A stretch of DNA of 64,000 nt from Methanococcoides methylutens MM1 (GTDB lineage Archaea > Halobacteriota > Methanosarcinia > Methanosarcinales > Methanosarcinaceae): positions 310,001 through 374,000 of the forward strand of contig NZ_CP009518.1 of the NCBI RefSeq assembly GCF_000970325.1. The letters are read 5' to 3'. Positions 51,504-53,325 of the stretch are shown in pieces. Below the pieces are notes generated by a model. It was not told the origin of the DNA. It saw only the letters and a program-made list of their open reading frames with translations, and did no database searches. The translations under genes were made by a program, and so were the position numbers. Positions within the stretch are counted from its first letter, which is position 1. Every line of letters starts with the position of its first letter.

Positions 51504-51521
51504 GAGGTTTTCTAACCTCTC
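51502..51521 (+). terminator. Hairpin at the end of herA
   Basis: GAGAGGTT (51502-51509) and AACCTCTC (51514-51521) with loop TTCT begin within the stop codon. There is only a weak T run after it, so it may protect the 3' end or separate herA from the tRNA promoter (TATA at 51531-51540). Confidence 0.5.
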
Positions 51522-51544
51522 TTGCGATACGTATATATAGGGCT

Positions 51545-51654
51545 AATACGTATGGGAGCAACTACTCACATATGCGTTGGGCCGGTAGCTTAGTCAGGCA
51601 GAGCGATGGACTCTTAATCCATCGGCCGAGGGTTCAAATCCCTTCCGGCCCGCT
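51545..51654 (+). repeat. 110-base direct repeat containing tRNA-Lys, copy 1
   Basis: This unit (34 bases of leader, the tRNA and two trailing bases) matches 53216-53325 at all but one position (G at 51576, T at 53247). TATA boxes lie at the same distance (about 44 bases) before both tRNAs but outside the exact repeat. Confidence 0.9.
51579..51652 (+). tRNA. tRNA-Lys (anticodon CTT), copy 1
   Basis: The acceptor GGGCCGG pairs with CCGGCCC, the discriminator is G, the anticodon loop is CTCTTAA (CTT), and the T arm is GAGGG-TTCAAAT-CCCTT-like. CCA is not encoded; a CTTTTT run follows directly and should end transcription. GTATATATAG at 51531-51540 is the promoter. Confidence 0.95.
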
Positions 51655-51819: not shown

Positions 51820-53151
51820 GTGGTGAAATTTGTGACAGGAGCAAAACTTATCCCGATAACGAAAGCGTGCATTTTCACATGTGTTCTCTTCCTCGTATTT
51901 TCAGCAGGCATCGCAAGTGGGGAAATAGAGCAATCCGGTGATGAGGGATGGGTGCAGATATTTTTCGAAGAATTCAATGATAATGTCGGTGGCTATTCTG
52001 TTCAGCAGACCTCTGACGGAGGCTATGTAATTACAGGCTACTACAAAAGCTGGCCTGAATCCTTTGTGAATGAATCCGATTACGAAGATCAGGTTGTGGA
52101 AGGTGCCTGCCTGATCAAGACCCATTCTAATGGCACTCTCCATTGGTTCAGGATCTTCGATGCAGACTATGATACCTTTCCGAATGTGGCCAGGTCCGTT
52201 CAGCAAACCTCTGACGGTGGCTACATCATAACCGGATCTTATGTGGATGATAACCTTGATGTCTGGCTCATCAAGACCGATGCTGAAGGGACAAAAGAAT
52301 GGGATAAGACCTTCGGAGGTTCCGGCAAACAGGTCGGCTATGATGTCAGGCAGACCTCGGATGGTGGGTACATTGTCACCGGTACCACTTCTTATGGGCA
52401 AAATATCTATCTTCTCAAGACCGATACTGATGGCAATGAAGAATGGGAGAAAATATTCGGTGGCTCAAAATTTGCAAGTGGGCGATCTGTTCTTCAGACC
52501 TCGGATGGCGGTTATATTTTAACCGGAGACAACTGGCTTATCAAAACAGATCCTGAAGGTAATGAAGAGTGGAACACAACAAGTTTTGGAGGACGTTCCA
52601 TCTGCCATGCTCAGGACGGTGGCTATGTTATAGCTGTCGACAGTTATGATGTAGAGATCGTCAAGATCGATCATACCGGTAATGAAGAATGGACTCGTAC
52701 ATTTGATGATTTTGGCTCAGGGAGTTGCAACGATGTTCAGGGAACGTCTGATGGGGGCTATATCCTAACCGGCAGTTATTATGCAGGCTAGGACAGGATC
52801 GATGCTTATCTCATTAAGACCGATGCACAAGGAAATAAAGAGTGGGATCGATCGTTTGGGGAAGTTGGTGAAGATCGGGGCTTCTCTGTTCTGCAGACCT
52901 CAGACGGGGGTTACGTTCTCACCGGTACCACATACTCTTACGGAGAAGATGCCTTCCTGATCAAGACCGATGCTGATGGCAACACCGGTGAAGATAGGAT
53001 GACTCCTCCGTCAAGGAGTGTGTCCCGCATGATAGATGTTGCTTCATCTATCGGTTTCATAGTGATGTATCTGTTTGCTCTGTTGCAGATTTTTGCCATC
53101 CCACTTATTATACTTCTTATACTTGTTTATCTGTGGAAAAGGCATAAATGA
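51820..53151 (+). CDS. Secreted seven-repeat (beta-propeller-like) membrane-anchored protein with in-frame TAG
   Basis: The reading frame gives 443 residues if TAG at codon 324 is read through. There is a signal peptide (~12-33) and then seven repeats built on QTSDGGYxxTG...LIKTDxxGNEEW (motifs near residues 63, 129, 178, 226, 264, 308 and 359). A linker, a hydrophobic membrane helix (~405-438) and a KRHK tail follow. TAG falls in a loop of repeat 6; the frame stays open with matching repeat 7 and the anchor for 119 more codons. Methanosarcinaceae decode UAG as pyrrolysine, so a full product is likely. The start is GTG 51820 (or GTG 51832 after GGTGA). Cell-surface binding role inferred; a fresh pseudogene is the alternative. 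Confidence 0.8.
52789..52791 (+). other. In-frame TAG, candidate pyrrolysine codon
   Basis: GGC-TAG-GAC interrupts repeat 6 (GSYYAG, then DRIDAYLIKTD). The downstream frame is intact to TGA 53149-53151 and carries the same repeat consensus, and no other gene in the window uses TAG as stop. Confidence 0.7.
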
Positions 53152-53215
53152 ACCGCTATGGTGCAGATTTTGGAGTCTTGAAGTTTCTCTTCTTCCGAAA
53201 TCTATATATCATGAA

Positions 53216-53325
53216 AATACGTATGGGAGCAACTACTCACATATGCTTTGGGCCGGTAGCTTAGTCAGGCAGAGCGATGGACTCTTAATCCATCGGCCGA
53301 GGGTTCAAATCCCTTCCGGCCCGCT
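53216..53325 (+). repeat. 110-base direct repeat containing tRNA-Lys, copy 2
   Basis: This is the second copy of the unit at 51545-51654, with one mismatch. The two copies flank the 1.3-kb surface-protein gene. Confidence 0.9.
53250..53323 (+). tRNA. tRNA-Lys (anticodon CTT), copy 2
   Basis: It is identical in all 74 bases to the copy at 51579. CTATATATC (53202-53210) is the promoter. Here the tRNA is followed by CTACAAAT, so the T-run terminator of copy 1 was not carried along. Confidence 0.95.

Follow-up and report, generated by a model that had tools for sequence, protein, structure and literature searches.

An in-frame TAG, most likely read as pyrrolysine, in a putatively exported repeat protein of Methanococcoides methylutens MM1

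Does the TAG that interrupts a repeat-protein frame of Methanococcoides methylutens MM1 end the protein, or is it translated? The frame lies in a window of 64,000 nucleotides, the whole stretch of DNA that was analyzed (contig NZ_CP009518.1, positions 310,001 to 374,000). Its parts are as follows, with positions counted from the first letter of the window:

51820..53151, + strand: surface protein, entire frame with TAG as sense, 443 aa, GTG start (exact start uncertain)
51820..52788, + strand: upstream part, 323 codons, with the signal/N-terminal hydrophobic helix (~11-32) and repeats 1 to most of 6
52789..52791, + strand: in-frame TAG, codon 324, predicted pyrrolysine; identical codon in G018 and G020
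52792..53148, + strand: downstream part, 119 codons, with the remainder of repeat 6, repeat 7, the C-terminal membrane helix (~399-442) and the KRHK tail; evidence of purifying selection
53149..53151, + strand: TGA stop of the surface-protein frame

Translated with TAG as O, the frame yields 443 residues and contains exactly one TAG; it begins at GTG 51820 or at a nearby in-frame GTG. The initial annotation had described a TAG at codon 324 followed by 119 open codons, a seven-repeat protein whose post-TAG part finishes repeat 6 and adds repeat 7, and a sole membrane anchor encoded after the TAG. The translation, the other frames and the coding score bear out this description of the frame. A stop-free run of 119 codons has a chance probability of ~0.001 at this GC, the remaining two forward frames hold 6 and 7 stops across the post-TAG region, and the extension after the TAG has a coding score of 0.28 vs 0.26 for the upstream part. 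Seven DGGY repeat cores are present (residues 66, 132, 181, 229, 266, 311, and 362); the TAG falls in repeat 6, and repeat 7 lies entirely downstream of it. Past the TAG, the earliest in-frame start codon is that of residue 394. Repeat 7 therefore cannot belong to a gene of its own, and we rejected two adjacent genes or re-initiation on this basis. We also rejected a pseudogene or a sequencing error, given the identical TAG in three assemblies and the constraint downstream.

The structure model of the protein (mean pLDDT 78, pTM 0.73) has an N-terminal helix at 11-32 and a C-terminal helix at 399-442, and both export and membrane anchoring by the sole C-terminal membrane helix are predicted, as had been claimed. 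Strands 314-321 and 327-334 flank residue 324, which places this residue in a loop, again in line with the initial annotation. The model has the four-stranded blades of a beta-propeller and matched solved propellers: the 687 PDB chains that matched at E<=0.001 included CylK and further propellers, with CylK matching by sequence profile at 3e-12 and by fold at 9e-17. We predict that the protein is exported and folds into a seven-bladed beta-propeller of delta-60/CylK-like repeats, with the C-terminal helix as anchor, the blade count of seven being taken from the seven repeats. Against the delta-60 repeat family TIGR02608 the protein scored 38.1 bits, under the curated cut-off of 76.5, and a contig search for relatives of the protein matched only distant bacterial repeat proteins. 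The propeller is presumably located at the cell surface, where it may serve in ligand binding or sensing.

Whether a TAG in such a gene calls for a special explanation depends on how the genome uses this codon. A simple codon-bias screen of ORFs, covering a sample of 816 kb (34% of the genome), found 668 coding-like ORFs, with TGA as the stop in 363, TAA in 296, and TAG in 9. At least five of the nine TAG ends are interior TAGs with a coding extension: two mtmB genes, the surface gene, a CcmF_C-like gene, and a MarR-like gene. Thus TAG is very rare as a stop in this 34% of the genome, as would be expected under an archaeal Pyl code. TAG also stands as a sense codon inside QRPTase (one) and GNAT (two) genes, where the domains continue across it. 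In alignments spanning the TAGs, the QRPTase position is Lys or Glu in relatives, the two GNAT positions are Glu and Gln, and the CcmF_C position is His, Lys, or Gln. The Lys codon AAG, the Glu codon GAG, and the Gln codon CAG are each one step from TAG. Together, the rarity of TAG as a stop and its exchange with Lys, Glu, Gln, or His codons in relatives point to a codon that has turned sense and is drifting. On this count, UAG is largely a sense codon in the genome. The surface protein had been put forward as an exceptional carrier of pyrrolysine (Pyl), which does not hold within this genome, where TAG is nearly vacated as a stop and lies inside several unrelated genes. UAG is probably not purely sense, given the apparent TAG stop of pylB (L046:5489-6601, - strand): readthrough would add 42 non-coding-like codons overlapping pylC, and pylB likewise ends in TAG in M. 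burtonii, M. mazei, and M. acetivorans (PMC2933860).

The individual TAG-containing genes differ in how widely the codon is shared. The CcmF_C-like cytochrome c biogenesis protein (L060:6429-7424, - strand; G000:C1:1666432-1667424) has TAG at codon 181, common to seven genus genomes, with His, Lys, or Gln there in others. The QRPTase/ModD-like gene (L054:3010-3801, - strand) has TAG at codon 57, a position held by Lys in nearly all relatives. A GNAT acetyltransferase gene (L057:14645-15208, + strand) has two in-frame TAGs, the second of which is present in one relative, and a MarR-family regulator (L057:13143-13580, + strand) has TAG at codon 125, 20 codons from its end. In an ORF of 28-codon repeats (L133:37-981, - strand), read with TAG as sense, TAG recurs in each of many copies; this ORF probably overlies a repeat-rich gene in a frame that is not coding. 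A third MtmB homologue (G000:C1:660852-662201, L003) is without TAG and may resemble MtqB, a tetramethylammonium methyltransferase known from Methanococcoides methylutens Q3c (PMC13044021).

Related repeat proteins occur in 45 of the 112 genomes of the family. Full-length, TAG-bearing orthologues are present in two further genomes of the genus, G018 (91% identical) and G020 (62%). The TAG is at the identical codon in all three species, in the context GSYYAG-TAG-D, and the downstream frame is intact, with no frameshifts or further stops. Downstream of the TAG, dN/dS is 0.22 (95% bootstrap 0.08-0.53) and 0.30 (0.16-0.53), compared with 0.45 and 0.26 upstream, and none of the bootstraps of the downstream part reached 1. 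By these estimates, the downstream part is under purifying selection, like the upstream part. Decay of this part in several strains, which the initial annotation had named as evidence against readthrough, was not seen; it is conserved and constrained in three species. Orthologues of two other genera (G001, G052, G054, G055, G059, and G063; 53-56%) are without TAG. The alignment at codon 324 has TAG kept in G018 and G020 and Gly in the outgroup loop, which is also of a different length.

We consider it very probable that the gene encodes an exported, anchored propeller in which UAG is translated as Pyl in ordinary competition with aRF1 and the residue is tolerated in the blade-6 loop. The residue inserted at codon 324 is most likely Pyl. 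Pyl-tRNA(CUA) would decode UAG in context-independent competition with aRF1, and readthrough would give the full-length protein with pyrrolysine in the loop of blade 6. Since UAG is largely sense in this organism, Pyl most likely arose and persists by tolerance; at codon 324 it would be a tolerated substitution, with selection keeping the folded, anchored protein and not the pyrroline ring.

It is very unlikely that Pyl itself is functionally selected, for example for amine capture or cross-linking by its electrophilic ring at the cell surface. Such selection could account for the TAG and the GGYILTGSYYAG-O-D stretch being invariant in all three species while the residues right after vary. However, the three species amount to only two independent, well-separated lineages (62% protein identity between the extremes), and at the dN of ~0.23 in the surface gene the average codon would often stay unchanged too; what the shared TAG shows is accordingly translation of the codon and not a specific need for Pyl. 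Moreover, other TAGs of the genome act as drifting Lys/Glu/Gln/His-like codons, and a search of the surface protein for a methylamine-binding or corrinoid domain found none. The earlier suggestion that the residue might be used for chemistry is not borne out, as the outgroup Gly and the difference in loop length form the pattern of a tolerated sense codon.

Translation of UAG as Pyl by ordinary competition is consistent with the decoding machinery. The pyl genes that the initial annotation had made a test of its reading are present as a complete set: the genome carries tRNA-Pyl(CUA), PylS, PylB, PylC, and PylD, clustered together ~55 kb upstream of the surface gene. PylS scored 688 bits against a cut-off of 550, and PylB, PylC, and PylD were also above their family cut-offs, as was the genome's one aRF1. 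Two mtmB genes have the canonical TAG. PYLIS (RF01982) matched only these two mtmB genes, with no match at the surface-gene TAG, and the RNA fold after that TAG is not unusually stable (z-scores -0.95 and -1.65), suggesting that a special recoding signal is not needed. The literature likewise describes PYLIS as dispensable and competition with the release factor as the likely basis of Pyl insertion (PMC9499178). The efficiency of Pyl insertion in the surface protein itself we infer; when a UAG was introduced into a reporter in M. acetivorans, readthrough was only 20-30% and both products formed (PMC2933860), so the 323-residue truncated product may be abundant.

Such a mixture raises the idea that UAG is a conditional switch, giving the full-length, anchored protein when Pyl is present and releasing a 323-residue, anchor-less fragment when it is absent. 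The position of the TAG before the sole C-terminal anchor fits this idea, as do the two reporter products and the dependence of UAG decoding on trimethylamine in Acetohalobium (PMC8211752). Nevertheless, we find a switch very unlikely: truncation inside blade 6 should leave a fragment that does not close as a propeller, neither the PYLIS search nor the fold stability after the TAG revealed a regulatory RNA element, and nothing indicates that the Pyl supply varies in this methanogen. If the switch were real, with Pyl plentiful during methylamine growth, genetic-code expansion would regulate what the cell displays.

The history of the locus bears on whether the TAG is simply a stop. The surface gene sits between two tRNA-Lys(CTT) copies, each within one copy of a direct repeat (93% identical):

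51520..51654, + strand: left copy of the 135-nt direct repeat, containing tRNA-Lys(CTT) 51579-51653
53191..53325, + strand: right copy of the 135-nt direct repeat, containing tRNA-Lys(CTT) 53250-53324

The locus is bordered by genes for a HerA-type helicase and a ribbon-helix-helix protein. Seven genus members have a single tRNA-Lys and no surface gene, and in a sister species, G019 (L068:2135-2565), both tRNA-Lys genes are present and enclose no more of the surface gene than its last codons. Judged by these residual codons, the G019 remnant is a deletion scar, left when the sister species lost nearly the whole gene. The seven members without the gene, together with this scar, mark the surface gene as an accessory insertion, probably gained once together with the tRNA-Lys duplication. 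The neighborhood gave no clue to function, as the orthologues in two other genera stand in unrelated surroundings without consistent common neighbors.

A true stop would make the 323-residue product the protein and the rest a decaying remnant. TAG can terminate in these archaea, as in pylB, and G019 did lose the gene. However, that deletion took both sides of the TAG and is not post-TAG decay, the downstream part is constrained across three species without frameshifts or extra stops, and a stop here would interrupt blade 6 and leave the protein without its anchor; we regard this explanation as highly improbable. Least credible of all is insertion of a residue other than Pyl at UAG, for instance by near-cognate suppression: readthrough is deduced from conservation only, but the genome holds a complete pyl set including the CUA tRNA, and a relative, M. 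acetivorans, inserts Pyl at an introduced UAG codon (PMC2933860).

Codon 324 would thus be an ordinary UAG translated as Pyl, in a carrier that is unusual in its predicted export. Annotation pipelines for which every TAG ends a gene would cut short the surface protein and other proteins of the genus. The QRPTase and GNAT genes, with their changes from Lys, Glu, or Gln to TAG, are clean test cases for a stop codon drifting into sense.

Among known proteins, the surface protein has its repeat type in common, by profile and fold, with the C-terminal beta-propeller of CylK (PDB 7ron, 7fh6) and with the TIGR02608 delta-60 repeat, although its TIGR02608 score is below the cut-off. CylK, an alkylating enzyme of cyanobacteria, has an additional calcium-binding domain (PMC8916777), whereas the surface protein is predicted to be a lone, anchored propeller.

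With MtmB, MtbB, and MttB, the surface gene would share the decoding of UAG as Pyl by the same pyl genes. Those enzymes, however, hold a conserved Pyl in the active site, and mtmB has a PYLIS, while the surface gene has no PYLIS and its outgroups lack the residue. Kivenson and co-workers reportedly described in 2025 archaea that read TAG generally as Pyl (a 'Pyl code'), with very low use of TAG as a stop and TAG inside many protein families. The genome here is alike in having few TAG stops, on the 34% sampled, and TAG inside several families.

Beyond methylamine methyltransferases, the reviews consulted list no Pyl carriers other than Thg1 and some transposases (PMC8211752), and computational surveys have given further candidates (PMC1242214, PMC3639795). 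In Methanosarcina acetivorans Thg1 (tRNA-His guanylyltransferase), an in-frame UAG is read as Pyl, which is considered an outcome of neutral evolution (PMC8211752, PMC2933860). The surface protein resembles Thg1, as described there, in being a non-methyltransferase carrier, and its pattern fits the tolerated drift proposed for Thg1. The two differ in that Thg1 is intracellular and acts on tRNA, its amber being reported in one species, whereas the surface propeller is predicted to be exported and anchored and has its TAG in three species. On comparative evidence, namely the TAG in three species and purifying selection after it, the surface propeller would add an exported, anchored repeat protein to the few non-methyltransferase Pyl carriers named in reviews.
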